Positions 15,187-37,850 of a stretch of DNA of 64,000 bases are shown piece after piece (the stretch's first letter is position 1; each line of letters starts with the position of its first letter). The stretch spans positions 682,001 through 746,000 of the forward strand of contig JAGBEG010000010.1 in the NCBI GenBank assembly GCA_017937095.1, in the 5' to 3' direction. This DNA comes from Roseburia sp. (GTDB lineage Bacteria; Bacillota; Clostridia; Lachnospirales; Lachnospiraceae). A program made the translations under genes and the position numbers. Below the pieces are notes generated by a model, which ran no database searches, was not told the DNA's origin, and worked only from the letters and a program-made list of their open reading frames with translations.

Positions 15187-15209
15187 CTTCGGGCCGATGT
15201 GGCCCGAGG
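15187..15209. repeat. ICE palindrome 1
   Basis: Arms CTTCGGGCCG and TGGCCCGAGG around ATG. It starts directly after the stop codon of the 67-aa gene (minus strand). Confidence 0.85.
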
Positions 15210-15413
15210 TCAGTACGGACTGGAGTGGAACTTCTGTTTGGCGTCCTCCACACTGTTGAGATCAAAGACTTCATAAAGCTGTCCCACAACACGACGAATA
15301 TCTTTCTTTGAAAAGCCGCAGTCCTCCATTGCCATGATGACATAGCCGCGGCAGGCGTCGTTGCTCCATTCATCCGGCTCAAAACCGGGAAACATCCCAA
15401 ACGCATTTTCCAT
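15210..15413 (-). CDS. Small acidic element protein, unrecognised
   Basis: 67 aa: MENAFGMFPGFEPDEW, then AMEDCGFSKKDIRRVVGQLYEVFDL. AAAGGAG stands six bases before ATG at 15413. No family is recognised. A terminator-like hairpin lies only ~25 bp upstream (15439-15496), so its expression could depend on read-through. The 3' end is followed immediately by an ICE palindrome. Confidence 0.6.
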   Translation of the reverse strand: MENAFGMFPGFEPDEWSNDACRGYVIMAMEDCGFSKKDIRRVVGQLYEVFDLNSVEDAKQKFHSSPY

Positions 15414-15438
15414 AAGAAACTCCTTTGAGAAAAAAGAT

Positions 15439-15496
15439 GGGGAGCCCCGCCAGATTGGTTGGCCTATCATCAGACAGCATTGCCGGAGGGCTCCCC
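15439..15496 (-). terminator. Leader hairpin with T run before the 67-aa gene
   Basis: On the minus strand GGGGAGCCC pairs with GGGCTCCCC across a ~39-nt loop, then ATCTTTTTTCTC and the ribosome site follow. This is the layout of a transcription attenuator, or the 3' end of a separate transcript from the 427-bp region upstream. Confidence 0.65.
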
Positions 15497-15923
15497 ACAG
15501 GTTTTTACTACATTATAGGCACATCGGACGGGCATAGGCTTTCTGCCCCATAGTATTTCAACTCTCCCCATTCTGATGGCAAGGCGTTCTCATTGCCTGC
15601 GACGGCTCACGGCTTGCAAGGCCGCTTCAACGCTCGGACTGTGACTAAACGCAAGTATCCGGGTCATGTGCCTGTTCCGGTGGAGCCAGCCTTGCCCCAC
15701 CTATGGCATGAGCCTGATCGCTCGCCCTGTTTTATAGAGACTGTATTCTCCAAAAGCAGAGGTCGTGGCGGGCCTGTCACACAGCGCATTTCCCTTCGTA
15801 TCCGGGTGCCTTTTTATTCAGTTTTCAATTTGCATGAGGGCTTGTCCGAACCTCGGGCCACCTTGACCCGGAGTGTTTTGCCTCTCATAAGCCATTTCAT
15901 TTTTTGGCCTAAATCGGTACACC
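15497..15923 (-). other. 427-bp leader region without a clear gene
   Basis: On the minus strand two short open frames look partly protein-like: about 25 codons beginning MTRILAFSHSPSVEAA, and another frame reading NALPSEWGELKYYGAESL before a stop. They would join with one frameshift, so a broken small gene is possible. ICE palindrome 2 lies at 15851-15873. A structured RNA ending at the 15439-15496 hairpin is the other reading. Confidence 0.35.
15851..15873. repeat. ICE palindrome 2 (degenerate)
   Basis: Arms CCTCGGGCCA and TGACCCGGAG around CCT. It lies 50 bp after the sigma-like gene stop. Confidence 0.7.
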
Positions 15924-16346
15924 TCACAAAGATTTTTTCAAAATTTTTTCCAAGTGCCGTAGCCCGCGCTCGATTGCCACACGGACTACTTTCTCATGGA
16001 CCCCTTCTGCCCTGGCAATATCCTGTTTCGTCATGCCAAGAATAAAGTGGGCGTAAATCCGTTTTGCCTGTTTGTCCGGCAGGCTGGCAATAGCAGCGTG
16101 AAGTTCCTGCATGGTAACTTTCCGCTCGTACAGTTCATGGGGCGAAAGTGCGACAAAGACAGCCTCATGCTCCAACCCATCATCCCGATCAAGGGAATAG
16201 TAGGCTTTATGGCGGTATGTACGCAACCGGTAAGCAGCCTCCCTGCGGTCAAATTCTTTGAACATTTCAGCAACCTCGTCCGATACTTCCATGAAGCAAT
16301 CCGATGCATAAAACGGGTAGTAGTCCCGCAAATTGATAATAGCCAT
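15924..16346 (-). CDS. Sigma-70-like RNA polymerase factor of the element
   Basis: 140 aa. The C-terminal half resembles sigma region 4: ELHAAIASLPDKQAKRIYAHF, LGMTKQDIARAEGVHEKVVR and AIERGLRHLEKILKK, with a helix-turn-helix. The N-terminal half is short (INLRDYYPFYASDCFMEVSD). Similar small sigma-like proteins regulate transfer or excision genes in Tn916- and Tn1549-type elements (family knowledge). ATG at 16346 sits after ACGGAGGTCAAT. It lies upstream of the two small genes and the recombinase on the same strand. Confidence 0.8.
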   Translation of the reverse strand: MAIINLRDYYPFYASDCFMEVSDEVAEMFKEFDRREAAYRLRTYRHKAYYSLDRDDGLEHEAVFVALSPHELYERKVTMQELHAAIASLPDKQAKRIYAHFILGMTKQDIARAEGVHEKVVRVAIERGLRHLEKILKKSL

Positions 16347-16419
16347 ATTGACCTCCGTTTCGGTTGGTGGTTGACGAGTGACCGAAACGAAGGCGGTGGA
16401 GAGCGGCACCGGGGAATGA

Positions 16420-16442
16420 TTTCGGGCCAACATGACCCGAAG
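16420..16442. repeat. ICE palindrome 3
   Basis: Arms TTTCGGGCCA and TGACCCGAAG around ACA. It lies upstream of the sigma-like gene, not between genes of one strand. Confidence 0.75.
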
Positions 16443-16533
16443 CAGTCCCATAAGAACACAAAAGCGCCCGGGCAGCACAAGGCCACTCGGACACATGAAA
16501 TAATATATTTGTTTATGTGCTGCCAAACTTCAT

Positions 16534-16576
16534 GTCTACCGTCAAACTTATCCTGTTTCGTTGGTAGACTTTTTTT
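16534..16576 (+). terminator. Plus-strand hairpin with T7
   Basis: GTCTACC and GGTAGAC are separated by 22 nt and followed by TTTTTTT. The loop contains TTATCCTGTTTCG, which matches the MOBP nic pattern YATCCTG-Y; this may be chance. Confidence 0.6.
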
Positions 16577-16696
16577 GACAGGTTAGGGGGATGGAAAATG
16601 AAAAAGGACACAGCGATACCTCCCAGATACCGCCGTATCCTTAAAAAAGGGCGACTTTAACACACCCCCCGTATTCTCATTTTTCAAAAAGAAAAC

Positions 16697-16727
16697 GGCG
16701 GCTTGAAATTGCTATTTCAAAACCGCC
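16697..16727 (-). terminator. Minus-strand terminator-like hairpin
   Basis: GGCGG-TTGAAAT and ATTTCAA-CCGCC arms surround a TTGCTA-type loop; on the minus strand GTTTTCTTTTT follows. Confidence 0.7.
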
Positions 16728-16881
16728 ATTAGAAGTTTTTAAGCATATTGAATTACCACTTCATATAACGGTTTTTTTATTTCCGTCATGTGAAATGGAA
16801 ATCAAGGTATGTCAGAATACTACAAATTTATTTTAGCATAATAAATGCTTTGTGCGAGGAACATGATTGATTAAAAAAGAA

Positions 16882-16910
16882 AATGTGCCATATCGAAAAT
16901 ATGGCACATT
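16882..16910 (-). terminator. Terminator of the CD3324-family gene
   Basis: AATGTGCCATAT and ATATGGCACATT arms with a four-base loop. TTTTCTTTTTT follows on the minus strand, six bases after the CD3324 stop codon. Confidence 0.85.
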
Positions 16911-16915
16911 CAGAA

Positions 16916-17191
16916 CTAATATCTATTTTTTTCTTGTCGTATGATACGTTGGATGCTTTTTTCTACCAAAAAGTATTTTTTAGCAAGTTTTGAAATTGGG
17001 ATTCCGGAACAAAACTCAGAATAAATTTTAGCATTTCGATCTGCAAGTTCCCTTTTAGTTGGCGTATTCTCACCCCAAAAGCACTTATTATTTTCCTTTT
17101 TAGGAATATATAAAACTTCGCCACTGATATATTGTTGTACTTGTTCTATAACTTCAAGTGGCAAAACATCTTTTGCTTTTACATAGCCCAA
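16916..17191 (-). CDS. CD3324 family small DNA-binding-like protein
   Basis: About 91 aa from a TTG start at 17191: GYVKAKDVLPLEVIEQVQQY, GEVLYIPKK, WGENTPTKRELADRN and ISKLAKKYFLVEKSIQRIIRQ. The C-terminal part is a resolvase-like helix-turn-helix. AGGAGG lies nine bases before TTG; the upstream in-frame ATG would put that ribosome site inside the gene. Length fits the family (~90 aa), whose role is unknown. The AT-rich base use differs from the surrounding element, so it is probably cargo. A related N-terminus occurs at 39262 beside the right end. Confidence 0.8.
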   Translation of the reverse strand: MGYVKAKDVLPLEVIEQVQQYISGEVLYIPKKENNKCFWGENTPTKRELADRNAKIYSEFCSGIPISKLAKKYFLVEKSIQRIIRQEKNRY

Positions 17192-17377
17192 AATGGTGCA
17201 CCTCCTAAAGAATTTCATGTTCATTTAGGATTAGCACAGGCTATTACCTTTCCATATTAAATTTTATATTTTGCAATAGCCCATGCTATGCACCAATATC
17301 ACCCATAAACCAAAGAGCCACCTTTCTGCAAATCTTATTAACAGTTTAATCTATCAGTTGAACTTTTGCAATGCTTT

Positions 17378-17854
17378 TTAAGAAATATCCGCAACCATGA
17401 TATATTCCTCATTGTTTTCACTAACAATTTTAAACCCTGCTTTTTGGTACATTTTAACAGCATAATTAGCTTTTTGAACAGACAACGATACCTTAGCGTA
17501 TTTGCTTTTCTTTAATTTGGTAAGCAAACCTTCCAACAAGGCCGTTCCTATTCCATATCCTCTGTATTCTTTATATAGTGACATTGCTAAGGATGGCGTT
17601 TTGTTATCAATATGCCCGTAATCATTCATAATTCTCACCCAAGCCGCTCCAACAATTTTATTATCAATCTCTACCACCATTCCTTGGTCTCCATGTTTTT
17701 TTCCAAAGTCCTTTATATATACTTGCAATTCTGGCAAGGAAATAATGGTTTTAGGTGGTGGGGTTGAGCCTTCTGGAATGAAAATAGCTTCGTATAGAAA
17801 TTGGCTTAGTAGCAAATACTCATGGTTTCTTATCTCTCGTATCTTATAATTCAT
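17378..17854 (-). CDS. GNAT family N-acetyltransferase (cargo)
   Basis: 158 aa. The acetyl-CoA loop EYRGYGIGTALLEGLL and the terminal MYQKAGFKIVSENNEEYIM are typical GNAT blocks; GAAWVRIMNDYG forms the central strand. The substrate is unknown. ATAGGAGGATTAT precedes ATG. It is AT-rich, unlike the transfer genes, and sits next to the CD3324 gene, suggesting both came in together as cargo of the element. Confidence 0.85.
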   Translation of the reverse strand: MNYKIREIRNHEYLLLSQFLYEAIFIPEGSTPPPKTIISLPELQVYIKDFGKKHGDQGMVVEIDNKIVGAAWVRIMNDYGHIDNKTPSLAMSLYKEYRGYGIGTALLEGLLTKLKKSKYAKVSLSVQKANYAVKMYQKAGFKIVSENNEEYIMVADIS

Positions 17855-18003
17855 ATAATCCTCCTATTATTATTTTATCATACTTCTTGGTTACTATACA
17901 TCTTAACACAGCTTCACCTTGTAGTGAAATAAAATAATACTTTATATCAAATTTCACTACATTCTCATAAGCTGACCCGAAATGTACAATGATATAGGGT
18001 GAT

Positions 18004-18369
18004 ATGAGAATGAACCAAGACGAAAGAAGGTTTGACTTTCACGGGCTCGGGCTCGCTTTGAAACAAGCCAGAGAGGAAAAGGGCTGGACACAAGCCTATG
18101 TGGCGGAGCTGGTCGGCAAGACTGACCGCACCATTATGAACATTGAGAACAAAGGCCAGCACCCCAGCTTCAACCTGTTTTTCAAACTCGTCACTCTGTT
18201 CGAAATTTCCGTAGATCAGTTTTTCTATACAGAAGGTCAGCGTGGAGAGAACAGTTGCAGAAAGCATATTGATGTGCTTTTAAGCTCGATGAATGAGAAA
18301 GAGCTTGTTGTCATGGAGGCCACAGCCGAAGGGCTCAAGAAAGCCAGAGAAACGGAGGTTCAGGAGTAA
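18004..18369 (+). CDS. XRE family transcriptional regulator
   Basis: 121 aa. Helix-turn-helix: LGLALKQAREEKGWTQAYVA, then LVGKTDRTIMNIENKG and ISVDQFFY. It is the only clear plus-strand gene inside the element and lies head-away from the GNAT gene, at the point where the transfer array ends, which suits an element regulator. ATG at 18004 or 18010 can be used; AGGGTG lies just upstream. A terminator overlaps its stop. Confidence 0.85.
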   Translation: MRMNQDERRFDFHGLGLALKQAREEKGWTQAYVAELVGKTDRTIMNIENKGQHPSFNLFFKLVTLFEISVDQFFYTEGQRGENSCRKHIDVLLSSMNEKELVVMEATAEGLKKARETEVQE

Positions 18370-18384
18370 GAGCCTCCGTTTTTT
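18351..18384 (+). terminator. Terminator of the XRE gene
   Basis: AACGGAGG and CCTCCGTT arms with a 14-nt loop spanning the stop codon, followed by TTTTTT. Confidence 0.85.
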
Positions 18385-18480
18385 CATGCCATTTTTGGGG
18401 CTGCCGCTAAGTGGCAAGCAATGCCTCCGTGGCCACAAAGGCCCGGACGCTGCTTGTTGGGGCTCGCCCCAAACCCGTAT

Positions 18481-18503
18481 CTTCGGGCCAACATGGCCCG
18501 AAG
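18481..18503. repeat. ICE palindrome 4
   Basis: Perfect arms CTTCGGGCCA and TGGCCCGAAG around ACA. It lies 34 bp after the relaxase stop. Confidence 0.9.
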
Positions 18504-18537
18504 TATTTGCGTCGCTTTGCTCCTTGTTTTCATAACC

Positions 18538-19953
18538 TCAACGCTCCTTTTCCTGCTTTCTGCCCGGCTCGGTGTAGCCCAGCAGAGTATCAATATTTGC
18601 CTTGATGGTGACGATTTCCTGCATATCCCGGCGCGCTTTCTGATACTCTCCATAAAGGCGCTTTTTCTTTGCCGTGAGCTTACGGCCTTCCTCCTTCAGC
18701 GCATCCATTTTCGGGAGTTTCGCCCCGCCCAGCAGACGGCGCATTTCCGCCTGTGCCGCCCGGTACAGTTCAATATCGGCCTCATGCTCCACAAGGAATT
18801 TCCGCCTGTACTTGGCAGCCTTGTACTGCTCAAAGACCGGGCGTGTTTTGGCATACTGAACCGTTGCGGCCTTTAGCCCGGCATTGGTTTTCATGGCCTG
18901 CTCCGTCTGCTTGATCTGCTCGGAAAGCGCATGGAAATGGTCGGTTGCCTCGGTGGCTTTCTGCGCCAACTGCTCATAATCAGTCAGGCCTTTGTCCTGT
19001 ATATAGGCGAGGGCGGCGGCCATCTGCTTGATGTTGAACACCTTCGCCCACCGCTCGTAGCCCGGTCCCTTACCGGCAGCCAGCTTTGCTTGAATATCCA
19101 CCGCCAGACTGATTTTTCGCTCCGGGCGTCCGGGGCGTTTTTCTTTGCCCTCAATGGCGGCAAGAACATCTTTCAGATCGTAGCCGTCCCCCAGCGTAGA
19201 GGCCCGCAGACGGGTAAAGCGTTCCTGTCCCTGGCCGGTCAGCCGGAAGCTGATACCACCGCCCCGAACCTTCTTGACTTCATATCCGGCCCGCTTCATC
19301 AGGGAAAGAAATTCGTCCAGATCGGCGGGGCGCTCGGCCAGCGCGGTATCAATGGCAAAGCGCAGCCGGTCCTGATACGAAAGCGGTCCTCTCCGTTCTT
19401 TCTGCCACTCCCCATAGTTCCGGTATTTTCCCTTGCTCCGGGGCTTCGGGTTCTCCACGATGGACAGCCCGTTTTCAAGGCACAGTCTGTCGGAGAGCCG
19501 ACGGAGGGCGAAGCTGGAGCCCCAGAAGTTTCGGAATTTTCGGGTACAGTCAAGGGTGGTGGAGTTGTAATAAATGTGACAATGAATGTGACGCTTATCG
19601 GTGTGCGTGGTAACGATAAAAGCGTGCCGCCCCTTCGTCCAGCGCATAGCCAGCTCATAGCCGATACGGTTCGCCTCCTTCGGTGTGATTTCCCCCGGAT
19701 AGAAGGATTGTCGTATCTGATAGCACAGCACATCATTGGCCTTTTTCTGTTCCCGGCCCGTCATGGCGGCATAGCTGGCCTTCGCCAAAAGAAACTCGTC
19801 CGCCACGGTGGCAGGGTCGCACTCATAAGCGGAGATATACTTTCCGCTTTCTGTTTTTTCCGGGTTTTTACCATAGTCCAGACAATCCCGGATGGCCTCG
19901 GCAATCGTTTCGCCTTCGCCCGCATGGCGCTGCAACAAAGTTGTGGTAGCCAG
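18538..19953 (-). CDS. MOBP relaxase (mobilisation nuclease)
   Basis: 471 aa from a CTG codon at 19953. The family normally begins MATT-x-L; here the sequence reads L-ATTTLLQRHAGEG, with GGGAGGG seven bases before CTG. The metal-binding motif HIHCHIYYNST is at residues about 122-132. Tyr residues near the N-terminus (about residue 27) could be the nicking residue. It would nick oriT, stay linked to the strand and lead it to VirD4. The C-terminal half is a long charged coiled coil (about 290-470). ICE palindrome 4 lies downstream; MobC is encoded upstream. A TTG at 19938 is the alternative start but would be too far from the ribosome site. Confidence 0.88.
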   Translation of the reverse strand: MATTTLLQRHAGEGETIAEAIRDCLDYGKNPEKTESGKYISAYECDPATVADEFLLAKASYAAMTGREQKKANDVLCYQIRQSFYPGEITPKEANRIGYELAMRWTKGRHAFIVTTHTDKRHIHCHIYYNSTTLDCTRKFRNFWGSSFALRRLSDRLCLENGLSIVENPKPRSKGKYRNYGEWQKERRGPLSYQDRLRFAIDTALAERPADLDEFLSLMKRAGYEVKKVRGGGISFRLTGQGQERFTRLRASTLGDGYDLKDVLAAIEGKEKRPGRPERKISLAVDIQAKLAAGKGPGYERWAKVFNIKQMAAALAYIQDKGLTDYEQLAQKATEATDHFHALSEQIKQTEQAMKTNAGLKAATVQYAKTRPVFEQYKAAKYRRKFLVEHEADIELYRAAQAEMRRLLGGAKLPKMDALKEEGRKLTAKKKRLYGEYQKARRDMQEIVTIKANIDTLLGYTEPGRKQEKER

Positions 19954-20005
19954 AAATCATCCCTCCCTTCTATGGAAAAAGGGCGGCCCGTCCAGACCGC
20001 TCCGA

Positions 20006-20028
20006 CATCGGGCCAACATGGCCCGAGG
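20006..20028. repeat. ICE palindrome 5
   Basis: Arms CATCGGGCCA and TGGCCCGAGG around ACA. It starts four bases after the CD1845-like stop codon. Confidence 0.85.
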
Positions 20029-20032
20029 CTGT

Positions 20033-20326
20033 TTAACTTGCCAGAAACCGATACAGAGCGGATTTGCCTCCGTCCAGCGCCCAAAGCAGAGAACCAGCCG
20101 CCGCTTGCAGCCCATACGGCGAAAGGAGGAAGGCGAGGAACAGAAATACAATCCCGCCGATGGGGGTCGGCGTGAAAAAGAGGGCGATACCCAGCACCGC
20201 CAGGATCACGGAGGCAATCGTCAGCAGGAAGGCGCAAATATCAAATAGAAACACCAGTAGAGCCGCCAGAAGGGATAGCGCCAGAGCGAAGGGCGCGACT
20301 AATATTTTCAGCAGTATCTTCATCAT
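20033..20326 (-). CDS. CD1845-like small membrane protein
   Basis: 97 aa, nearly all hydrophobic: MMKILLKILVAPFALAL, a second segment rich in Leu/Ile/Ala, and PTPIGGIVFLFLAFLLSPYG. Two or three membrane helices are expected. Proteins of this kind recur next to the relaxase in Tn1549-type elements; the role is unknown. AAAGGAGG stands five bases before the ATG pair. Copy B of the duplicated 44-bp sequence lies upstream with a promoter-like TTTATG-17-TAAAAT. Confidence 0.75.
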   Translation of the reverse strand: MMKILLKILVAPFALALSLLAALLVFLFDICAFLLTIASVILAVLGIALFFTPTPIGGIVFLFLAFLLSPYGLQAAAGSLLWALDGGKSALYRFLAS

Positions 20327-20369
20327 CAAAACCTCCTTTATTCTTTCTATCTCTATTTTATCATGCCTG

Positions 20370-20414
20370 CCCGGGGACATAAATGTTGCGAAAGATTAGT
20401 GAATCCTGTCCCGG
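20370..20414 (+). repeat. 44-bp duplicated regulatory/nic-like sequence, copy B
   Basis: Matches copy A (14877-14920). Ends CCGGGGACA and TGTCCCGG are inverted. It contains AATCCTG-TCCC, which fits the MOBP nic pattern YATCCTG-Y apart from the first base. On the minus strand it runs into TTTATG-17 bp-TAAAAT. It lies between mobC and the relaxase genes, a usual place for oriT. Confidence 0.75.
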
Positions 20415-20416
20415 AG

Positions 20417-20439
20417 CTTCGGGTCAACATGGCCCGAAG
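20417..20439. repeat. ICE palindrome 6
   Basis: Arms CTTCGGGTCA and TGGCCCGAAG around ACA. It directly adjoins copy B of the 44-bp repeat. Confidence 0.85.
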
Positions 20440-20454
20440 TGGTAAAAAAAGAAC

Positions 20455-20492
20455 AGGGCGGCAAGCCCCACACAACGGAAGCCTGCCGCCCT
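20455..20492 (-). terminator. Hairpin with T7 after mobC
   Basis: On the minus strand AGGGCGGCAGGC pairs with GCTTGCCGCCCT and TTCTTTTTTTACC follows, five bases after the mobC stop. It reads as a terminator. A stem-loop near oriT is an alternative. Confidence 0.7.
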
Positions 20493-20496
20493 CGTC

Positions 20497-20838
20497 TTAC
20501 TTTGCCACCAGCTCGGAGAGCTCCCGCAGCACCTTTGACACCTCGCCCCACAGCTTTTCATAGTCCCGCTTCAATCCGTCGATTTCCTCCAGGTACACGC
20601 CGTAGGTATGCGCGTGTACGGCGACCTGATTGAGATTGTTGGAACAGCGCCTTTGCAGAGAGATCAATTCTTTTATGGGCGCAAGGTCAACGTGCAGGAT
20701 ATACCCGTTCAGAGCCATCTTCCGCACATAAGCCCCGGCATTGGAAATGCCCGCTTCGGCCATCCGTTCATGGATGGCCGCCAGCTCGTCCGGCGTCACC
20801 ATGACGTGCAGATGGACATTCCGCTTGCGGTTCTCCAT
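20497..20838 (-). CDS. mobC: MobC-like relaxosome accessory protein
   Basis: 113 aa. It begins MENRKRNVHLHVMVTPDELA with a ribbon-helix-helix-like N-terminus, then AGISNAGAYVRKMALNGYIL and the MobC-type stretch ISLQRRCSNNLNQVAVHAHTYG. MobC proteins open oriT DNA for the relaxase. Its ATG overlaps the stop of the upstream 60-aa gene (TGATG), so the two are coupled. The relaxase follows two features downstream. Confidence 0.88.
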   Translation of the reverse strand: MENRKRNVHLHVMVTPDELAAIHERMAEAGISNAGAYVRKMALNGYILHVDLAPIKELISLQRRCSNNLNQVAVHAHTYGVYLEEIDGLKRDYEKLWGEVSKVLRELSELVAK

Positions 20839-21020
20839 CAGCGTTCCAGCTCCCGGCCCTTTCTGCGCTCTTTGGGCTCCTTCACTTTATCCAGCGGTTT
20901 TGCGTCCAGCTCCGGGGGCGCAGGCTGGATGGGCGTGTTATTGGGTACGCCGTCGATCATGTTGCAGTTCTGCTCCGTGGAGAGCTCGGCGGTTTTCAAA
21001 TAGTTGTCTTTTTCGTGCAT
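20838..21020 (-). CDS. 60-aa hydrophilic protein, unrecognised
   Basis: MHEKDNYLKTAELSTEQNCN, then a proline-rich PIQPAPPELD and a charged tail. AAAGGAGG is six bases before ATG. The TGATG overlap with mobC supports translation. No domain is known to me. It is likely a small element protein made together with MobC. Confidence 0.6.
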   Translation of the reverse strand: MHEKDNYLKTAELSTEQNCNMIDGVPNNTPIQPAPPELDAKPLDKVKEPKERRKGRELER

Positions 21021-21032
21021 GGCAATCCTCCT

Positions 21033-21623
21033 TTATCGTTCCTCATGGTTTTTATGGTTCCGCTTCTGGCTGGGTTCCTTCGGGGGTTCCTGCCCTCTGG
21101 CTCCATCCTTGAGCCGGGCGGTGATGGAGGGGCGCACCCGGTCAGGATTGGCCGGTGCGGGTTTCAGCTCGTAGTCCTCCATCTGTTTTTCGGTCAGCGG
21201 CTTCGCATAGGTCAGTTCTCCCCATGCCATCAGCCTGCCATTTGCCACAGGACGCCGCCTGTCGTCATCGTAGTTGACGATGGAAAGCGGAAGGTTATCC
21301 GGGGGCTTCGGGTAGGTGCCTATGTCCACAGGGCGCTGGGTGGAATAGTAGCGGTAAACGCCATCCGGGCCCAGCTCTGTATTTTTGACTGCTGCATGGT
21401 AAAGGTGCTGATAATCGTCCACCCGGCGGTCAAAGTCCCGCTGCGCCCATTCCGGACTGTTTCCATAGCGGCCCCAGTAGTAATCCCGCTGGCCCTTTTC
21501 GCCTTCGGTAAACTGCCAGGTCACAAATGGGTCCGGCGCTCCCGGATTATGCCCCAGCGCAAAGCCGTGTCCGCTGTCAAAAGTGGTTGTTTTCAAAATG
21601 GCATAGCCTTGTACGATCTCCAA
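21033..21623 (-). CDS. Conserved Tn1549-type protein of unknown function
   Basis: 196 aa from TTG at 21623: EIVQGYAILKTTTFDSGHGF, then DPFVTWQFTEGEKGQRDYYWG and NPDRVRPSITARLK. AGGAGG lies six bases before TTG; the only in-frame ATG upstream is inside ICE palindrome 7. It is glyco-enzyme-unlike and soluble, with a charged C-terminal tail. I recognise it as a recurrent gene of these elements but not its function. Confidence 0.6.
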   Translation of the reverse strand: MEIVQGYAILKTTTFDSGHGFALGHNPGAPDPFVTWQFTEGEKGQRDYYWGRYGNSPEWAQRDFDRRVDDYQHLYHAAVKNTELGPDGVYRYYSTQRPVDIGTYPKPPDNLPLSIVNYDDDRRRPVANGRLMAWGELTYAKPLTEKQMEDYELKPAPANPDRVRPSITARLKDGARGQEPPKEPSQKRNHKNHEER

Positions 21624-21642
21624 GAGATACCTCCTTTCTGTA

Positions 21643-23273: not shown

Positions 23274-23295
23274 GCAAGGGCTCCTTTCTTCTGGC

Positions 23296-30576: not shown

Positions 30577-32400
30577 TTACACAAACTCGTCGCTGTCCAG
30601 ATCGTCGAAATTCAACAGGTCAGCTTCTTCGTCTGTGTCGGAGCCGTCCACCTCGTACACCGTGTATTCGTCCTCCGGCTTTAGTCTCAATGGCCGGTGG
30701 CGGAACAGGCTTTCCAAGTGGAAGGCGTTTTTCTTTTTGTCAAACTCGGCTGTGTACTTGTAATTGGGGTGCTTTTTCAAATCATATTTGGGAGAAAAGA
30801 AGGGCGGGAGCCCTCGAAGCTGCAAGATACACTTGTCTCCCGGCATGGTGGTGATCTCGCTGGTGGTCATCAGCTCCCGGCCAAGCCGCTGCATATTCTG
30901 GCTGTAACTCTCGGACTGGCCCCGGCTGCGGCCCTCGGTCTGCATGGAGATGGTGGCCTTGCCCAGCCAGTTTTCCGAAATATCCTTTAGGGTGGAAGCC
31001 TCCCGGCCTCCGAGGAACACGATACTGTCCATGTTTCCCATGATGGTTTCGGAATGGTCCTTGTACAGCGCCTTGCATTGGCTCATAGCCTGATAAAAGA
31101 GCGTCAGGCTGATCTCCCGGGAACGGATAACGGCAACGATTTTTTCCAGCCCCGGCACCTGTCCCGTGTTGGCCGCCTCGTCCCACAGCACCCGTACATG
31201 ATGGGGCAGGCGTCCGCCGTAGGTGTTGTCGGCCCGTTCACACAGAAGGTTGAACATCTGCGAGAAAGCGAGGGCCACAAGAAAGTTATAGGTGGTGTCC
31301 GTATCGCTGATAAGGAAAAACAGCGCCGATTTTTCATCCCCCAGCCGGTCAAGCTCCAGCTCGTCATAGGACATGATCTCCCGAAGCTGGGGAATGTCAA
31401 AGGGAGCGAGGCGGGCCCCGCAGCTAATCAGTATGCTCTTAGCCGTCTTGCCGCTTGCCAGCTTGTACTTCTTGTACTGCCTCACAGCGAAGTGCTGGGG
31501 ACTCCGGCGCTCCAGCCCGTCAAACATATAGTCCACCGCGTTTTTGAAGGTTTCGTCATCCTCCCGGACCTCCATGCTGTTTATCATTTCCACCAGCGTA
31601 TTCATGTTGCGTTCTTCCTCCGGCCCCTCAAATACGATGTAGGCCACAAGGGCGCAGTACAAAAGGGTTTCGGCTTTGGTCCAGAACTCGTCGCCCTCCT
31701 TGCCGTCGCCTTTGGTGTTGGCGATCAGGGCGGTGACGAATTTCAGCACGTCGCTTTCCGTTTTGATGTAGGCCAGCGGATTGTAGTGCATGGATTTGGA
31801 GAAGTCGATACTATTGAACACCCGCACCTTATATTTCTCCCGTTGCAGGAACCGCCCGCATTGGTCGAGGGTGCCGCCCTTCGGGTCCACCACCACATAC
31901 GAGGAATGGGCTTGAAGGAGCTGCGGGGTCAGCCAGAACCTTGTCTTGCCCGATCCGGACGAGCCGATGACGCAGGCGTTCAGGTTGCGGGCGTTGGCGG
32001 GTATCTTCGGGCGGGTGTTCATGGTAAGAAACTCCGTCCCGGTGAGAATAACATTGTTCTGAAATTTGGGGTCTACAAACGGCTTTATATCCTCCTTTGT
32101 TCCCCAGCGGGCGGTGCCGTACTCCGCATCCCGCCGGAATTTCTTTGCCTGCTTGATTTTGGACTGTATCAGCAGATACACCCCAGCCGCACCGGCGAGG
32201 CCCACCAGCAGGTCAATGCCGCCCAGTCCCGGCCAGTAGGTTTCAAAGGCTTTGGGGAATGTGTCGAGCATCCCCATGAGCTTTGTCCCGAAGTCTGCGC
32301 CGGGCGCGATACGGTAGGCCGTCCCGATTTTGGAGAAAAACCAGAACACAAAGAGGTACGGCAGGTTGGGGAGCACATATTTTCTGATCTTGTCACTCAA
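30577..32400 (-). CDS. VirD4-like coupling protein (CD1115 type)
   Basis: 607 aa. Two N-terminal membrane helices (LPYLFVFWFFSKIG and LLVGLAGAAGVYLLI) are followed by a TraG/VirD4 ATPase: Walker A CVIGSSGSGKTRFWLTP, VVVDPKGGTLDQCG, Walker B VRVLWDEAANTGQVPG and YQAMSQCKALY. It links the relaxase-DNA complex to the channel. It overlaps the PcfB gene by four bases and has an acidic C-terminal tail. Confidence 0.93.
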   Translation of the reverse strand: MSDKIRKYVLPNLPYLFVFWFFSKIGTAYRIAPGADFGTKLMGMLDTFPKAFETYWPGLGGIDLLVGLAGAAGVYLLIQSKIKQAKKFRRDAEYGTARWGTKEDIKPFVDPKFQNNVILTGTEFLTMNTRPKIPANARNLNACVIGSSGSGKTRFWLTPQLLQAHSSYVVVDPKGGTLDQCGRFLQREKYKVRVFNSIDFSKSMHYNPLAYIKTESDVLKFVTALIANTKGDGKEGDEFWTKAETLLYCALVAYIVFEGPEEERNMNTLVEMINSMEVREDDETFKNAVDYMFDGLERRSPQHFAVRQYKKYKLASGKTAKSILISCGARLAPFDIPQLREIMSYDELELDRLGDEKSALFFLISDTDTTYNFLVALAFSQMFNLLCERADNTYGGRLPHHVRVLWDEAANTGQVPGLEKIVAVIRSREISLTLFYQAMSQCKALYKDHSETIMGNMDSIVFLGGREASTLKDISENWLGKATISMQTEGRSRGQSESYSQNMQRLGRELMTTSEITTMPGDKCILQLRGLPPFFSPKYDLKKHPNYKYTAEFDKKKNAFHLESLFRHRPLRLKPEDEYTVYEVDGSDTDEEADLLNFDDLDSDEFV

Positions 32401-32867
32401 CGCCCGTCCTTCACCGCCTCTCTGGTCCGCTGCTTCTCCTTCGGCTTTGTCCTGATCTGCTCCGTGAGCTTGCGGAGCTGGCCGAGGATAGAAGCCTTGT
32501 CCTGGTCTTTGTTCAGCACCTTTGTACTGTATTTCTGGAAGGCCGCCGTGATGGCGTCCGCCTGATTGGCTTTGAAAAACAGCAGGTAATGGCCGGGGCT
32601 CACTTTATGGAAAGCGTAGTCCACATGGAACTCCTTCGCTATCCGGTCAAAATCCTTCGGCGCACCCACATACTGCATGGCGTTTTTGCCGCCGTAGTGG
32701 TTCATCAGCTTCTTCACGCTCTGGCGGCCCTGCGGGGTCAGCGCCTTCCGGTGGTGCTTTTGCAGCACCCGAACCACCTTGCCAAGAGCGGCGGCCAGCA
32801 CTTTTCCCGTCAGCTTTGCCGTCTTGATCGAAAGGGCAACTGTTTTTTGGTTTACTTCTTCCTGCAT
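32397..32867 (-). CDS. PcfB family transfer protein
   Basis: 156 aa. MQEEVNQKTVALSIKTAKLT, LTPQGRQSVKKLM and DYAFHKVSPGHYLLFFKANQ match PcfB-type proteins that work with the VirD4 protein (PcfC in pCF10). AAAGGAGG stands before ATG. The four-base overlap with virD4 supports a joint role. Confidence 0.85.
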   Translation of the reverse strand: MQEEVNQKTVALSIKTAKLTGKVLAAALGKVVRVLQKHHRKALTPQGRQSVKKLMNHYGGKNAMQYVGAPKDFDRIAKEFHVDYAFHKVSPGHYLLFFKANQADAITAAFQKYSTKVLNKDQDKASILGQLRKLTEQIRTKPKEKQRTREAVKDGR

Positions 32868-32934
32868 AAAACCTCCTTTCCGTCAGGGCTCCCGGTAGAC
32901 GGGAGGCCCCCGTACACTCCGGGGCAACAGAAAA

Positions 32935-32957
32935 CCTCGGGCCAATGTGGCCCGAGG
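32935..32957. repeat. ICE palindrome 16
   Basis: Arms CCTCGGGCCA and TGGCCCGAGG around ATG; the C/G change at the second position is matched on both arms. It starts one base after a stop codon. Confidence 0.9.
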
Positions 32958-32958
32958 C

Positions 32959-33978
32959 TTACCGCTCGGCATCCCTGCCGGACGGAGCTTTCTTTTCCGG
33001 CTCCGTCTGGACTTTTTCGCCCTGTTCCCGCATGGTCTGCAAGATAGAGGGCTTCTTTTGAAGCTGGGAGGGCTTTTCGCCGGACAGCGGCTTGATACAT
33101 TCCAGACGGTCAGCCGCCCGGATGGCGTTGTCCGTGAGCTGCCGCTGCCATGCGCCCACGCTTGGAGCCCAGCGAAAGCCGTTGCTTTTCAGCTCGGCCC
33201 GGGTGCCCGCGTCAGGCTTTCCGTCAAAGAACACCTGTAAGCGGTTGTCCTCCCGGTTCATTTCCACACGGCCCCCGTCAAACTCCCAGCCGGAGAACTC
33301 CCGCTGCGCCTGTTTGGAAAGCTGTTCGATACGGGCTTTTACCCGGCGGATCTCCGCGTTGTTGTTGGTAAGCTGGTAGCTTTCAAAGGGCCTCGGGTCG
33401 CTCCGCCAGCTTGACGCCATGCTGGCTTTCAGCTTTTCGATCTGGTCAGGCGACAGCAGCGCACAGCCGTCCAGCTTGCCATGCTTGCGGTAATAGGCGT
33501 TGACCTCCTTCATAATGAGCTGGGAGCGTTCCAGCCCGTCCAGCTTTTTCTGGAGCTTTTCAATGGCCGCCGGGTCATCGGCGCTGATACCGCCCATGCC
33601 GGTGCTGCGTATCTTATCCAGCAGCCCTTGAATATGCCGCCATTCCTCCATGTTGCTGTCCCGCGCCCGGTTCTGTTTTTCCTTTTTCCCAACCGGGAAA
33701 TTGGAAGGCCCGGCGATCAGCACAGAGGGAACTCTTGCGTCAATGGCAAAGCCCTGGTTCATGTTTTCGGCCAGCTTGCGGGCGTAGGTGTCTAACAGAT
33801 GGTCGATCTTCTCGTGGTACATGGGGTCCACCCGGGATTTTTGCCGTTCGGCTATGGCTGCGGCCTTGTCTACCATTGCCCGGTATTCCGCCGTTGCGCT
33901 CCCTTCCTTATAGTCGAAAAAGCTGTTCATTTCCTTTGCCCGGCGGGCGGCCCCTTCATTGATGGGGTAATAGTTGAT
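32959..33978 (-). CDS. Conserved element protein with DUF3560-like C-terminus
   Basis: About 339 aa if started at ATC (33978): NYYPINEGAARRAKEMNSFF. AAGGAGG lies eight bases before this ATC. Homologues I recall start MNYYP. The in-frame ATG at 33996 would place the ribosome site inside the gene and has none of its own. The C-terminal part (FSGWEFDGGRVEMN, LQVFFDGKPDAGTRAELKSN, GFRWAPSVGAWQRQLT) looks like a DUF3560-type domain. A long helical middle part precedes it. Function unknown. Confidence 0.6.
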   Translation of the reverse strand: MNYYPINEGAARRAKEMNSFFDYKEGSATAEYRAMVDKAAAIAERQKSRVDPMYHEKIDHLLDTYARKLAENMNQGFAIDARVPSVLIAGPSNFPVGKKEKQNRARDSNMEEWRHIQGLLDKIRSTGMGGISADDPAAIEKLQKKLDGLERSQLIMKEVNAYYRKHGKLDGCALLSPDQIEKLKASMASSWRSDPRPFESYQLTNNNAEIRRVKARIEQLSKQAQREFSGWEFDGGRVEMNREDNRLQVFFDGKPDAGTRAELKSNGFRWAPSVGAWQRQLTDNAIRAADRLECIKPLSGEKPSQLQKKPSILQTMREQGEKVQTEPEKKAPSGRDAER

Positions 33979-33997
33979 GGTATGCACCTCCTTCATG

Positions 33998-34020
33998 CTT
34001 CGGGCCATGTTGGCCCGAAG
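33998..34020. repeat. ICE palindrome 17
   Basis: Arms CTTCGGGCCA and TGGCCCGAAG around TGT. It starts two bases after the ArdA stop. Confidence 0.92.
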
Positions 34021-34022
34021 TC

Positions 34023-34736
34023 TTACCGTTCCTCATGGAAAAGCCCCGCCTTGTCCTTTTGCGGAGCGGGCGGGGCCTCTTGAAACCGTTTGAGTGCGCC
34101 GAGAATGGAATGGACGGGTTCGGCCTTTTCGGGATAGGCAAATACCCGGTGTTCCGGCGGTATGTCCTGCGTTCCGTGGTAATGCTCCTTAAAGCCCACC
34201 GGGTCCGCCGCCACATATCCGCCGGGAGCGAATACGCCGCCCTCGTTGATACGCATATCCCGCCCGTATGCCTCATAATCGAAGTAGCCTTGAATGTGCT
34301 CCGGTATGTCGATGGTCCTCAGCTCGTCGGCGTACAGATGGCCCAGCCCTTCATCATCGGAAATATCCGGGTAAAAGCGGTAGAGGTCAAGGTTCTGTGT
34401 CAGGTTGATTAGGTCCTTCACGCTGCCCGTGTGTTTTCCCAAGACAAGAGCGGCCTCAAAGGTTTCCAATCCGCCCTTGTCCCGTACTTCCAGCAGGGCA
34501 TGGCCCAGCTCATTCAGCTCGTCGATGTTCTCGTACTCGTCCAGATAGTCGTACAGTCCCAGCACATCGCTGTCAAAGCTGGTAATAAACACTTCGCTGT
34601 ACCGCTTTCCGTCTATCCCGATTTTGGCAAGGGCGGCCTGTACCTCCTGTGTGGTCGTGGGGAAATGTACCGTTGTTCCCACCTCAATCCCCATCATGGG
34701 GTACAGGGCCGTGTTGGTTATATAGGCTTCAAACAT
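34023..34736 (-). CDS. ardA: ArdA-type antirestriction protein
   Basis: 237 aa. MFEAYITNTALYPMMGIEVG, FITSFDSDVLGLYDYLDEYE and IDELNELGHALLEV are ArdA blocks; the protein is very acidic, mimicking DNA, and blocks type I restriction enzymes. The extra C-terminal ~60 residues (after DYEAYGRDM) include QDIPPEHRVFAYPE. ATG at 34736 follows GGAGG. It is followed, on the same strand, by a conserved element gene and preceded by the methyltransferase gene, so both lie in one anti-restriction block. Confidence 0.88.
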   Translation of the reverse strand: MFEAYITNTALYPMMGIEVGTTVHFPTTTQEVQAALAKIGIDGKRYSEVFITSFDSDVLGLYDYLDEYENIDELNELGHALLEVRDKGGLETFEAALVLGKHTGSVKDLINLTQNLDLYRFYPDISDDEGLGHLYADELRTIDIPEHIQGYFDYEAYGRDMRINEGGVFAPGGYVAADPVGFKEHYHGTQDIPPEHRVFAYPEKAEPVHSILGALKRFQEAPPAPQKDKAGLFHEER

Positions 34737-34740
34737 GGGC

Positions 34741-35826
34741 TCAATCCTCCTTTCCGGCCCTGTCTGCCAGCACTTCATAAATCCCGGCCATGATGTAATC
34801 GGCGCAAGGGAGGGCAATCGCATTTCCCAGCGCCTTGTAGCGTTGCAGAGGCCGGATTTCCTCGCCGTCCGCCCCGTACTTTGTCCAGCCCTCCGGCAGC
34901 CCCATCAGCCGCTCACTTTCCGTTTCCGTCAAGAAGCGGATACAGCCGTCGTCCGGGTCGCCCTCGTACCAAAAGGCGAAGGGCGTCACGTCGCTGGCTA
35001 AAAGAGTGGGAAAAGGGTCAGTTGGTAATCCGAAGCTGTTTCGGAAGGCGGTTTCTTCCTGCCTTTTTGCCGCTCCCCGCATACGGAAGCATTGAAAGGG
35101 GTGGATGACTGGTATTTGCCGCCCTGTTTCAAAAGAAGATGTTCGATCTCCTTCGGCGGCGGTCCGCCCGCCCTCTCGGCAAGGCGGAGGAAGTGGGAGC
35201 ATTGGACGGGGCTTAAATAGTATGTCGGCGGCACGTCTGCCTCTAAAATCCGCCACGATGAAAATTCGCTGCCTTCGCGCCAGCCTTCGGGAGCCTGCCC
35301 AATACTGGGCGTCCATGAGCCGCCAGCACACATCAGGCGTTCCCCCTCGCACCATTCCGGCGTTTCCCCATCTTCCAGAAGGAGGCATTGGAACTTCGGT
35401 GTCCGAGAAGGCGGATAGGACGGCTCTAAAATCCATCCGGTCATTTGTAGAAAACGCTCCCATGACGTTTTCCCAAACAGCGATAGCTGGATATAGGTTA
35501 TCAGTGGCATCCCTCATTTCCTGTATGATACGAAACGCCTGATAAAACAGGCTGGATTTTGCCCCGGCAAGGCCGGAGCGGTTGCCGATCAGAGAAAGGT
35601 TCTGACAGGGAGAGCCGAAGGTTATCACATGGACAGGCGGGATTTTCCCGCCGTCCACCTTCGTAATATCCCCCAAGTGCGCCATATCGGGAAAGTGCCT
35701 TTTGGTTATGGAGATCGGCGCTTTTTCAATCTCGCTGGCCCACACCGGACGGATACCGCAGCGGGAGGCCGCCAGAGGGAAAACGCCTATCCCATCAAAA
35801 AGGCTCCCCAGCTTAATGTCCGGCAT
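34741..35826 (-). CDS. C5-cytosine DNA methyltransferase
   Basis: 361 aa. Motif I LGSLFDGIGVFPLAASRCGI, motif IV FGSPCQNLS with the catalytic Cys, motif VI ENVMGAF, motif VIII RRQRIFIVADF and motif X GNAIALPCADYIMAGIY. The target-recognition region lies between about 200 and 290. It would methylate the element's DNA, protecting it in new hosts. Its start overlaps the upstream gene by 14 bases, and ardA follows after four bases. Target site unknown. Confidence 0.92.
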   Translation of the reverse strand: MPDIKLGSLFDGIGVFPLAASRCGIRPVWASEIEKAPISITKRHFPDMAHLGDITKVDGGKIPPVHVITFGSPCQNLSLIGNRSGLAGAKSSLFYQAFRIIQEMRDATDNLYPAIAVWENVMGAFSTNDRMDFRAVLSAFSDTEVPMPPSGRWGNAGMVRGGTPDVCWRLMDAQYWAGSRRLARRQRIFIVADFRGRRAADILFKPRPMLPLPPPCREGGRTAAEGDRTSSFETGRQIPVIHPFQCFRMRGAAKRQEETAFRNSFGLPTDPFPTLLASDVTPFAFWYEGDPDDGCIRFLTETESERLMGLPEGWTKYGADGEEIRPLQRYKALGNAIALPCADYIMAGIYEVLADRAGKED

Positions 35827-36169
35827 GACCCGGGCCGCCGTGTCCCTTCACGGCAAGAACCCCGTCCAGCGTAGTAGCCGCGATACCCAGCCGCCCGGCA
35901 ACCGCAATGTCGTTTTTCACATCCTCGTCCACCGCACCGCCGCAGACGATCAGGGTATGGGAGCGCCGCAGCATATCCCGGCGCATATCAATCCCGGCCT
36001 TATGTTCCTCGGGAACGCTGTCATTCAAGAACAGCGGAAGATACAAAAGCGGGCAGATGGGGGAAAAGCCCGCCTCATAGGCAAGACGGCAGTAGTGGGC
36101 CGCCAGCTCCATATCAATATCCGGCTCACCGCTCCATGCGGCGGTCAGATAGGCCAAAGGTCGTTTCAT
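35813..36169 (-). CDS. DUF4406-like nucleoside/NAD-type fold protein
   Basis: 118 aa. MKRPLAYLTAAWSGEPD, then FSPICPLLYLPLFLND and RRSHTLIVCGGAVDEDVKND resemble DUF4406/DUF7768 proteins, which share a nucleoside 2-deoxyribosyltransferase-like fold. AATGGAGG stands seven bases before ATG. It overlaps the methyltransferase gene by 14 bases. The biological role is unknown. Confidence 0.65.
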   Translation of the reverse strand: MKRPLAYLTAAWSGEPDIDMELAAHYCRLAYEAGFSPICPLLYLPLFLNDSVPEEHKAGIDMRRDMLRRSHTLIVCGGAVDEDVKNDIAVAGRLGIAATTLDGVLAVKGHGGPGHAGH

Positions 36170-36253
36170 TGGTTCAACCTCCATTTCTTTCTGATTTACG
36201 GAAAGCAAGGTTTCGCCCAACCCCTCCGCCCCTTCCCGGGGGAAGGGGGACGG

Positions 36254-36417
36254 CTCTGGAGAATTTATATCCCCGTCGCTTGTCCGGGAAAAAGCATAAC
36301 CGGGAGAAATCCGTCAAGGGTGCCTCTGGCACCGCCTGCGGCGGCGTTGCCCTTGACTGATTTTCCCGGCTATGCTACGGAATAACTGGCGACGGGGAAT
36401 AATTTATATCTCCAGAG
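36254..36417. repeat. ~164-bp nested inverted-repeat element
   Basis: Outer arms CTCTGGAGA and CCCCGTCGC (36254-36279) pair with 36389-36417. Middle arms AGCATAACCGGGAGAAAT (36293-36310) pair with 36359-36375. Inner GTCAAGGG pairs with CCCTTGAC. The tip can form TGCC/GGCA and CCGC/GCGG hairpins. It could be a structured RNA, a single-strand origin, an oriT region or a small non-autonomous insertion. Confidence 0.75.
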
Positions 36418-36446
36418 CTTCGGGGCGCGGGGCAGTGCCCCGCAAT

Positions 36447-36469
36447 CCTCGGGCCATCTTGACCCGAAG
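36447..36469. repeat. ICE palindrome 18
   Basis: Arms CCTCGGGCCA and TGACCCGAAG around TCT. It starts seven bases after the parB stop. Confidence 0.85.
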
Positions 36470-36476
36470 TTTCGGC

Positions 36477-37850
36477 TTACTTTTCCGGCTCGGTTTTCTT
36501 CTCCGGCTTTTCGTGTTCCTTCTGCTGGCCCTTCCAGTCGTCCAGCAGCTTGATGATCTGGTCCTTCATTTCCCTCGGCGTGGTTTCCTTGCCGAAGTAT
36601 TTGCTCAGTTCCGCACCCGTCAGAATCACTTTGTCTACCTCCTTTTTGTCCTCCATCATAATGCCGTCGATCACATCCCCGTTGAGCAGCTTCTTTTCGT
36701 CCAGCTCCCGCATACGCTTTGCCTGCGCCTGCGAAGGCGAGGACTGCTGGCTGTCGATGGCGATGGCGATATAGTTCTGGTTCTTCTTGCCGATGTAGGA
36801 AAGCTCCACCGCCGTAGTGAAGCCCAGCTTTTTCTCGTCCATCAGCTTCATCAGGTCGGGGACCAGCTCATTCAGCCGGATATACCGCTGCACCTGCTTG
36901 ACGGCCATCTTGTTCCGCTCGGCCACGATCTCGTTGGAGCGTTTGCCTGCGTCCTTCGGGTCAATCTGGCCCGAAGTGCGGGAGCCCTGGTGCTTGATGG
37001 CCTCAAGCTGCATTTTCAGAGCTTTGGCCCGCTCGCTGGGGAGAATTTCTTCGCGCTGGTTCAGATTGTCCTCCACCATCTGCGTGATGGCTTCATCGTC
37101 CGTCAGGTTGCGGACGATACAGGGCATATCCGCATATCCGGCAAGCTCGCTGGCTTTCTGGCGGCGGTGGCCGGACACGATCTCATAGCCGCCATCCTCA
37201 CGGGGACGGACGATAGCAGGCTGGGTAACGCCCTTGTCCTTGACGCTGGACACCATAGCCCGCATTTCTTCATCGTCCCGGACCTCAAAGGGATGGTTCT
37301 TGAAGGCGTGGAGCTCGTTCAGCTTGATATATACGATCTGTTCCTCGCCACGGCGGGGAGCCTCCTTCGGCCCCTCGGGTTCCTTCGGAGCGGGAGCGGC
37401 CTGCACCGTGGGAGCCGCTTTTTTCTCCGGTTTCTCTTTGGGTGCCTTTTCCTGCTTTTTCTGTGCGGGGGCTTTGGGCTTCAGAGCGGCGGCCTTGTCC
37501 TTATCCTCTTTCGGGGGACGGCCCCTGCGCTTCGGCTGCTCGGGCTCTTTGGGCTTTTCCTGTTTTCCCTCGGCCTTTTTCGGAGCCTCCGGCTGCTTTT
37601 CCGGTTTCTCCGTTTTTGCCGGGGCAGGCTTTTCCCCGCCAGAAGCCGCCGCCCGTTCCTCGGCCTTCTTTCCTTTCATAATTTCAGCGAAGTCATAGAC
37701 GGACACCTGCGGGCTCTTTGCCTGCTGTTCCGTCTTTTTTTCGGCCTCCGGGGAAGTAGGCGTTTTCTCCGGCTCGGGCGGAGTTTCCTTGCCCGGCCCG
37801 GTATCTGTTACCGGCTGCTCCGGCATTTTCGTGGTTTTATCATCTGCCAT
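36477..37850 (-). CDS. ParB/Spo0J-family partition protein
   Basis: 457 aa. The first ~170 residues are low-complexity Lys/Pro/Glu with Ala. The ParB domain follows: VYIKLNELHAFKNHPFEVRD, EIVSGHRRQKASELAG and MVEDNLNQREEILPSERAKA, then a helix-turn-helix KMAVKQVQRYIRLNELVPDL. AGGAGG lies nine bases before ATG at 37850. No parA is seen, so it may regulate rather than partition. ICE palindrome 19 encodes SGQIDPK inside the ParB domain. It is the first gene of the minus-strand array. Confidence 0.88.
   Translation of the reverse strand: MADDKTTKMPEQPVTDTGPGKETPPEPEKTPTSPEAEKKTEQQAKSPQVSVYDFAEIMKGKKAEERAAASGGEKPAPAKTEKPEKQPEAPKKAEGKQEKPKEPEQPKRRGRPPKEDKDKAAALKPKAPAQKKQEKAPKEKPEKKAAPTVQAAPAPKEPEGPKEAPRRGEEQIVYIKLNELHAFKNHPFEVRDDEEMRAMVSSVKDKGVTQPAIVRPREDGGYEIVSGHRRQKASELAGYADMPCIVRNLTDDEAITQMVEDNLNQREEILPSERAKALKMQLEAIKHQGSRTSGQIDPKDAGKRSNEIVAERNKMAVKQVQRYIRLNELVPDLMKLMDEKKLGFTTAVELSYIGKKNQNYIAIAIDSQQSSPSQAQAKRMRELDEKKLLNGDVIDGIMMEDKKEVDKVILTGAELSKYFGKETTPREMKDQIIKLLDDWKGQQKEHEKPEKKTEPEK
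36954..36976. repeat. ICE palindrome 19, inside parB
   Basis: Arms CTTCGGGTCA and TGGCCCGAAG around ATC. It encodes SGQIDPK between the ParB nuclease-like domain and the helix-turn-helix. Confidence 0.85.

Follow-up and report, generated by a model that had tools for sequence, protein, structure and literature searches.

Why does one conjugative element carry the same 23-bp palindrome at 19 places, most of them between genes? The question is posed by a 64,000-nt stretch of a Roseburia sp. genome (GenBank assembly GCA_017937095.1, contig JAGBEG010000010.1, positions 682,001 to 746,000 of the forward strand), called the window in the following. An earlier note on this DNA had offered three answers: binding sites for an element protein, RNA hairpins in the long transfer mRNA, or a self-spreading palindromic repeat. 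Judged by sequence comparison, the 23-mers are very probably docking sites, similar to parS or the KorB operator, for the element's own ParB protein (encoded at 36477-37856). This reading is based on a palindrome that is maintained at the DNA level, on its covariation with ParB residues, on the prediction of sites for held-out ParBs and on the conservation of the occupied junctions in relatives.

The palindrome array and its relatives

A scan of the window with the pattern CTTCGGGCCANNNTGGCCCGAAG at no more than three mismatches yields exactly 19 positions, seven of them perfect, and these are the positions listed in the earlier note. At the same threshold, 100 dinucleotide shuffles of the window give no match. 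Across the whole genome (3,891,284 bases in 24 contigs) the scan returns the same 19 copies and nothing further, so that the claimed restriction of the 23-mer to the conjugative element holds; the reversed pattern has no match in the genome. Inspection of the 19 copies also confirms that the arms are conserved and the centre is variable, and that the copy at 32935 carries a matched change in both arms.

All sites fall within the region from the recombinase gene (13304) to the end of parB (37856), with 19 sites in 22 kb or about one per 1.2 kb. Pfam searches place them in a conjugative element whose main genes, on the minus strand, are those for recombinase, a sigma-like protein, relaxase, MobC, DarA-C, a CD1107-like protein, NlpC/P60, VirB4, PrgI, DUF7007, SpoVG, TrbL, Maff2, VirD4, DUF3801, ArdA, cytosine methyltransferase and ParB. 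From this gene set, the element is presumably Tn1549-like. The open reading frame (ORF) that holds site 9 is one which we take to be DUF4315-like. The element and its sites, the latter located by the pattern scan and given without strand, are:

13304..37856, minus strand: conjugative element, approximate extent from recombinase to parB (Pfam gene content)
15187..15209: site 1, junction of sigma-like gene and recombinase gene
15851..15873: site 2, after the sigma-like gene
16420..16442: site 3, immediately before the sigma-like gene
18481..18503: site 4, after the relaxase gene
20006..20028: site 5, before the relaxase gene
20417..20439: site 6, after mobC
21643..21665: site 7, immediately before darA
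22164..22186: site 8, junction of CD1107-like gene and darA
23052..23074: site 9, inside the 3' end of the DUF4315-like ORF
25018..25040: site 10, before the nlpC/p60 gene
25216..25238: site 11, immediately after virB4
27998..28020: site 12, junction of DUF7007 gene and prgI
28661..28683: site 13, junction of spoVG and DUF7007 gene
29341..29363: site 14, junction of trbL and spoVG
30554..30576: site 15, junction of virD4 and maff2
32935..32957: site 16, junction of 32959 ORF and DUF3801 gene; matched change on both arms
33998..34020: site 17, junction of ardA and 32959-34008 ORF
36447..36469: site 18, 7 nt past the parB stop codon
36954..36976: site 19, within the parB coding sequence, in the linker between ParB_N and the helix-turn-helix (HTH)

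Placement was scored against a 21-gene table made for this analysis, in which five gene starts were moved off the longest ORF. By this adjusted table, 17 of the 19 sites are outside coding sequence and two inside (23052 in the DUF4315-like ORF and 36954 in parB); with the longest ORFs instead, 13 are outside and six inside (16420, 21643, 28661 and 33998 being added). Seven sites begin 0-4 nt past a stop codon, and five of these seven are 7-21 nt ahead of the next start, with starts as set in the adjusted table. Read by eye, intrinsic-terminator-like hairpins with T runs are present just downstream (coding strand) of sites 30554-30576 and 15187-15209.

Of 295 genomes of the order, 15 contain the pattern at no more than one mismatch, the own genome among them. 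Palindrome-bearing relatives comprise at least 118 stretches from GTDB contigs and 13 from IMG/VR. This gives 131 loci among the matches listed, a scope that holds for all statements on these loci. Many of them contain transfer genes of the window element. Closely similar elements, mostly with 82-100% protein identity, are found in Gemmiger formicilis (L044), Traorella massiliensis (L040, L079), Roseburia inulinivorans (L081), Clostridium fessum (L117) and C. clostridioforme (L103); another R. inulinivorans locus (L066) has more mixed protein identities.

Differently spelled versions were surveyed in 43 loci, namely the window element, L019, L020 and 40 VirB4-centred stretches. A multi-copy palindrome of this kind is present only in the window, genome G153 (L019/L020), L172, L173, L174 and L175; four other loci of the 43 have 3-member palindrome families of unrelated sequence. 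G153 has the window arms, but the centre AASTT in nearly every copy. Besides the window's type (type A), there are type B, CTTYGGGACA..TGTCCCRAAG, in L172, L173 and L175, and type C, CTTCTGGACA..TGTCCAGARG, in L174. Copies within one element are rather uniform, and the same gene junctions are occupied across types A, B and C at about 70% VirB4 identity. The window centres are mostly TGN on the coding strand; orientations are mixed in G153 and in the type B and type C elements.

ParB and the sequence of its sites

The parB gene and the codons to which the sites are coupled are:

36477..37856, minus strand: parB, 459 amino acid ParB-family protein (Pfam ParB_N E 2.5e-19; NCBIfam parB_part above cut-off)
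36897..36902, minus strand: codons of ParB V319 and K320 (recognition helix); K320 coupled to half-site positions 7 and 8 (mutual information, pair contrasts, permutations)
36816..36818, minus strand: codon of ParB T347, coupled to half-site position 10 (mutual information z 11.0; aligns with the glycine of the GHxR motif)

ParB has a long K/E/P-rich N-terminal extension with an RGRP motif, followed by the ParB_N (CTPase) domain (residues 173-265) and by the HTH (about 306-330); the GHRR motif is kept. A second, weak segment of its profile aligns gaplessly through the HTH to 6sdk (Spo0J) and 1vz0. In the clade with dispersed sites, more than 150 residues precede GHRR in 28 of 32 loci versus two of 148 others, and three of the remaining four are cut by contig ends; one of the 32 (L212) is the window itself again. 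The RGRP motif is found in 16 of the 32 and in one of the 148.

Site 19 has counterparts in many parB genes. Alignment of 129 parB hits gave 122 distinct loops with the palindrome at one fixed place, the linker between ParB_N and HTH. At least eight of ten pairs are formed in 105 of the 122 loops and at least nine in 86. When these loops are reshuffled synonymously, the respective values drop to 6.7% and 1.0%, and at other places in the same parB genes they are 4.8% and 0.4%. Because 26 of the 122 loops originated from palindrome searches, the fair figure is that for the 92 loops found via the parB protein search alone: at least eight pairs in 83 and at least nine in 65, with 50 different left hexamers. 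The linker peptide tracks the DNA (TSGQVGPK, TCTQVGYK, TSPQVAAK, NGVQVEHH and others). This means that the constraint acts on DNA. The linker is found both with and without the palindrome insert. A detailed comparison of 14 loci with an in-parB palindrome showed, among palindromes with at least nine of ten pairs, no second copy of the own palindrome within 8-19 kb; in L047, a type-A site is present elsewhere in the locus.

For 104 ParBs (one of 105 was dropped for its late alignment start), each half-site position was compared by mutual information with the ParB columns that lie outside the linker; ParB is the only element protein analysed in this way. The strongest couplings are those of position 7 with K320 (z 11.2), position 10 with T347 (z 11.0) and position 8 with K320 (z 10.6). 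The same three lead among 83 protein-selected ParBs (11.0, 10.4 and 11.3; next 5.6), and in a set of 72 representatives none of 200 permutations reaches the top values at positions 7, 8 and 10. Among pairs of these representatives with 70-90% ParB_N identity, a difference at positions 7-8 is accompanied by a difference at residue 320 in 73 of 78 cases, and pairs that agree at positions 7-8 share their residue 320 in 19 of 21. R347 is paired with C10 in 18 of 19 cases and T, N, S or L347 with A10 in all 79 scorable ones. For the in-parB sites, Y319K320 goes with GGA (3/3) and V319K320 with GG at positions 6-7 (19/19).

In the weak but gapless profile alignment to Spo0J (6sdk), 319 falls on the arginine of GKSR, 320 on its neighbour and 347 on the glycine of GHxR. 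By motif, ParB 319, 320 and 347 are the predicted counterparts of Caulobacter 173, 174 and 201. Residues 173 and 201 set the specificity of ParB and Noc for parS versus NBS, and the Noc arginine at the 201 position reads a C:G pair (PMC7383237). An arginine at this position goes with C:G both in Noc and in the ParBs compared here.

The residue-base code was frozen and applied to 56 new ParBs from IMG/VR and plasmid records, of which 16 were skipped for being at least 95% alike to one another or to the training set, a further 14 lacked an in-gene site with at least eight pairs and 26 remained. Positions 7-8 were predicted correctly in 15 of 19 scorable cases (baseline 23%), and for three of the four misses the observed bases are among those already known to occur with that residue. 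Position 10 was correct in 22 of 24 (baseline 80%), with C10 for R347 in 6/6. The code also fits dispersed sites of elements without a palindrome in parB. Here, L173 (type B) and L174 (type C) encode Y319K320, and their dispersed sites read GGA. Six type-A ParBs (L034, L125, L218, L060, L213 and L134) have V319K320T347 together with the expected GG at positions 6-7 and A10. Furthermore, the IMG/VR loci L321, L323-L326 and L351, scanned with C9/G15 required, all have Y319K320 and show GA at positions 7-8 in both halves of one to three sites per locus.

Several observations weigh against ParB as the reader of these sites. No palindrome of at least eight pairs is present in 17 of the 122 ParB loops, eight of which belong to dispersed-site elements while the others are remote or degraded. 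The coupling of V319 (z 5.1) is not above that of unrelated columns such as L182 (5.9, next after the top three). In the contrasts for position 10, columns 421 (3.28) and 182 (3.05) come near 347 (3.54), and three further columns exceed the permutations as well, so part of the position 10 signal is due to shared ancestry. Position 8 differs between the arms in 18 of the 19 V319K320 in-parB sites; because of this ambiguity, the GGC match of the six type-A ParBs, which are in addition related to the training set, is weak at position 8. R320 goes with either GA or GC, and half-site positions 4-6 have no convincing ParB partner. The combination V319 R320 G347, found in the ParB of a second element of the same genome (L229, see below), is unseen among the others. 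Held-out prediction failed for L404 and for L353 and L361, whose sites may be spurious. In L321 and L323-L325, positions 6-8 of one half-site are AGA. No repeated palindrome was found in 4.4 kb of L322 (G319K320) or in 16 kb of L216 (ParB 46% identical). Finally, the ParB reading does not account for the retention of so many copies and their concerted change.

Other readings and the purpose of the sites

The earlier note had named ParB, XRE and SpoVG-like proteins as candidate binders. For ParB, covariation and out-of-sample prediction argue in favour; SpoVG is not needed, since G153 has no spoVG match and keeps the sites. That another element protein (sigma-like, SpoVG-domain, MobC or methyltransferase) binds the 23-mers is very improbable. 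A sigma-like gene is present in 30 of the 131 palindrome-bearing loci compared with 23 for ParB, mostly in 8-kb stretches, but the code derived from in-parB sites fits the dispersed sites from ParB alone. SpoVG, the methyltransferase and the 32959 ORF were set aside as none of them has a match in G153, where the sites are kept. The sigma-like protein had been considered for its frequent proximity and was dropped when the ParB covariation emerged.

Intercistronic RNA hairpins with a role in the protection, processing or regulation of the long transfer mRNA would suit the many sites which, on the coding strand, have a stop codon on one side and a Shine-Dalgarno-like sequence on the other. Arms of 10 bp without a mismatch would fold readily, and among type-A centres TGN is commoner on the coding strand than its complement (TGT 39, ACA 6). 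An RNA should prefer one-sided changes that leave G·U pairs. In the corresponding test, 489 sites were scored and 49 were not orientable; 375 remained once identical flanks were removed. On the coding strand, these 375 show 122 G·U and 119 A·C changes (p 0.90), and one site per distinct 8-bp flank (n=249) gives 74 and 73. Sites within parB have 16 G·U versus 42 A·C, the opposite of what is expected for RNA. Type-B elements mix C·A and T·G orientations, Rfam has no match at gathering thresholds, and a structured RNA would give no reason to expect covariation with residues 320 and 347 of ParB. The hairpin proposal is rejected because of the G·U/A·C symmetry and is considered highly unlikely.

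A self-spreading palindromic repeat of the RPE/REP type that inserts between genes would account for the common sequence of all copies in an element, for parB linkers with and without the insert and for isolated copies beside ordinary-looking genes in other genomes. In the own genome, no copy lies outside the element. What speaks against such a repeat is that elements of types A, B and C, whose VirB4 proteins are about 70% identical, have their sites at common positions, that the site sequence covaries with ParB residues, and that the 14 loci with an in-parB palindrome show no second copy of it in 8-19 kb. This third proposal has hardly any probability; it is not needed to explain the sequence, although the concerted change of an element's copies stays unaccounted for.

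If the 23-mers are ParB sites, a ParB dimer would read one arm with each HTH, residue 320 (with 319) contacting half-site positions 6-8 or so and residue 347 position 10. By analogy with KorB and ParB, the protein may load at the sites as a CTP clamp and then spread. With the observed site density and many sites at gene boundaries of the transfer operon, the operon or the entire element could thus become coated. That the sites serve to control the transfer genes jointly with parB itself, in the manner of KorB or BisD, has an even chance in our view. Transfer regulation is a better candidate than segregation. Maintenance, i.e. segregation or retention of the excised circle with the help of a host or distant ParA, appears rather unlikely. 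In its favour, the protein belongs to the ParB family, and in 43 of 100 ParB loci outside the dispersed-site group a ParA-type motif is encoded on the same strand no more than 4 kb away. By contrast, a regular expression, which variants may escape, found no ParA-type ATPase motif within 4 kb on the parB strand in any of 22 dispersed-site loci (10 of them with at least 2.5 kb upstream in view), nor within 4 kb in four more (L043, L054, L103 and L129, counted among the 100 by the grouping rule). Since ParA was not found near parB, ParA-driven segregation is less likely, and the protein is classified as an orphan ParB instead of a part of a ParABS system as tested. A regular expression for the ParA-binding motif matched neither group (0/32 and 0/148) and thus does not distinguish between them.

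Plasmid RK2 carries about a dozen dispersed palindromic KorB operators. The KorB operator has 13 bp and appears unlike the window 23-mer. The window ParB matches the KorB structure 8qa8 in sequence (E 1.2e-4 alone, 4.6e-9 by profile). KorB, a ParB-family protein, acts as a CTP sliding clamp and, from OB sites at a distance, silences promoters (PMC11790492). Like this protein of a conjugative plasmid, the window ParB belongs to an element with multiple dispersed sites, whose junctions are conserved in relatives. In contrast to KorB/OB, the window site has a 10-3-10 design of 23 bp, sites are located at gene ends inside the transfer operon and one inside parB, and neither ParA near the window parB nor a KorA partner, at which no search was aimed, was identified.

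Chromosomal parS is highly conserved, whereas the mobile-element site is hypervariable, co-diversifies with its protein and occupies one fixed place in many parB genes. The chromosomal systems ParB-parS and Noc-NBS share the fold family and the specificity positions (173, 201) with the window ParB (PMC7383237), and B. subtilis also has a parS within parB (PMC4442127). BisD of ICEclc, a ParB-domain protein, switches on genes of an integrative conjugative element (PMC7423338) and is counted among the CTP-dependent clamps (PMC12704722). Unlike the window ParB, it acts together with BisC, is encoded in a parA-shi-bisDC region and is proteobacterial; the accessible text mentions no dispersed site array (PMC7423338). 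According to a 2025 survey, orphan ParB-like proteins without ParA are common and widespread, and one divergent branch is enriched on mobile elements (PMC12704722). The window ParB resembles them in that ParA was not found nearby; in its accessible part, the survey does not mention in-gene sites or ParB-site covariation in conjugative elements (PMC12704722). In the open-licence literature, screened by title or start of abstract, no description of such palindromes or of a ParB-site system of this kind was found, and papers listed for the arm 10-mer as a word look unrelated by title.

A broader proposal, on which we are evenly divided, is that a large family of ParB proteins from mobile elements carries its own site in its own gene. 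The site would dictate the linker peptide, and specificity would travel as a self-addressed cassette. In one clade, which has no detected ParA and a long N-terminus that is often RGRP AT-hook-like, the site might have been copied to many gene boundaries, so that a segregation protein became an element-wide clamp that controls conjugation, and the array would be re-addressed in concert with the protein specificity. The results suggest that a widespread class of gut conjugative elements is under the control of a ParB clamp which loads at numerous gene junctions and which the gene list of the transfer operon does not show as a point of control. A residue-to-base code for unusually diverse ParB-site pairs (50 left hexamers, 83 protein-selected genes) makes protein-DNA co-evolution and the compatibility of mobile elements directly testable. 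It also raises the question of how 10-19 sites of one element switch their specificity together.

Further palindromes and neighbouring DNA

Isolated perfect or near-perfect 23-mers occur beside ordinary-looking genes in L055, L092, L104 (two), L137, L141, L143 and L169, with no element-gene match in view. Possibly, they belong to cargo regions of elements; judged by eye, no gene neighbour common to them was seen. L219 (G464:C2:70000-88000) has a five-member palindrome family of another design, ACATTCCC-6-GGGAATGT, next to a remote ParB relative (33%).

The second element in the Roseburia sp. genome (L229, contig C9: 189000-208000) contains seven copies with at least eight of ten pairs of a sister palindrome, CTTCRCGACA..TGTCGCGAAG, at 3134-6387. 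Its ParB shows 37% identity and has no in-gene palindrome copy.

In L020, parB lies at the element end in a reading by eye, and the ORFs past parB in G153 resemble, also by eye and with no family search, arginine-biosynthesis genes. In the window, the parB end is adjoined by an AT-rich island (38081-45087, about 32-35% G+C) that encodes a phosphotransferase-domain protein and an AbiEii-type toxin-like protein.

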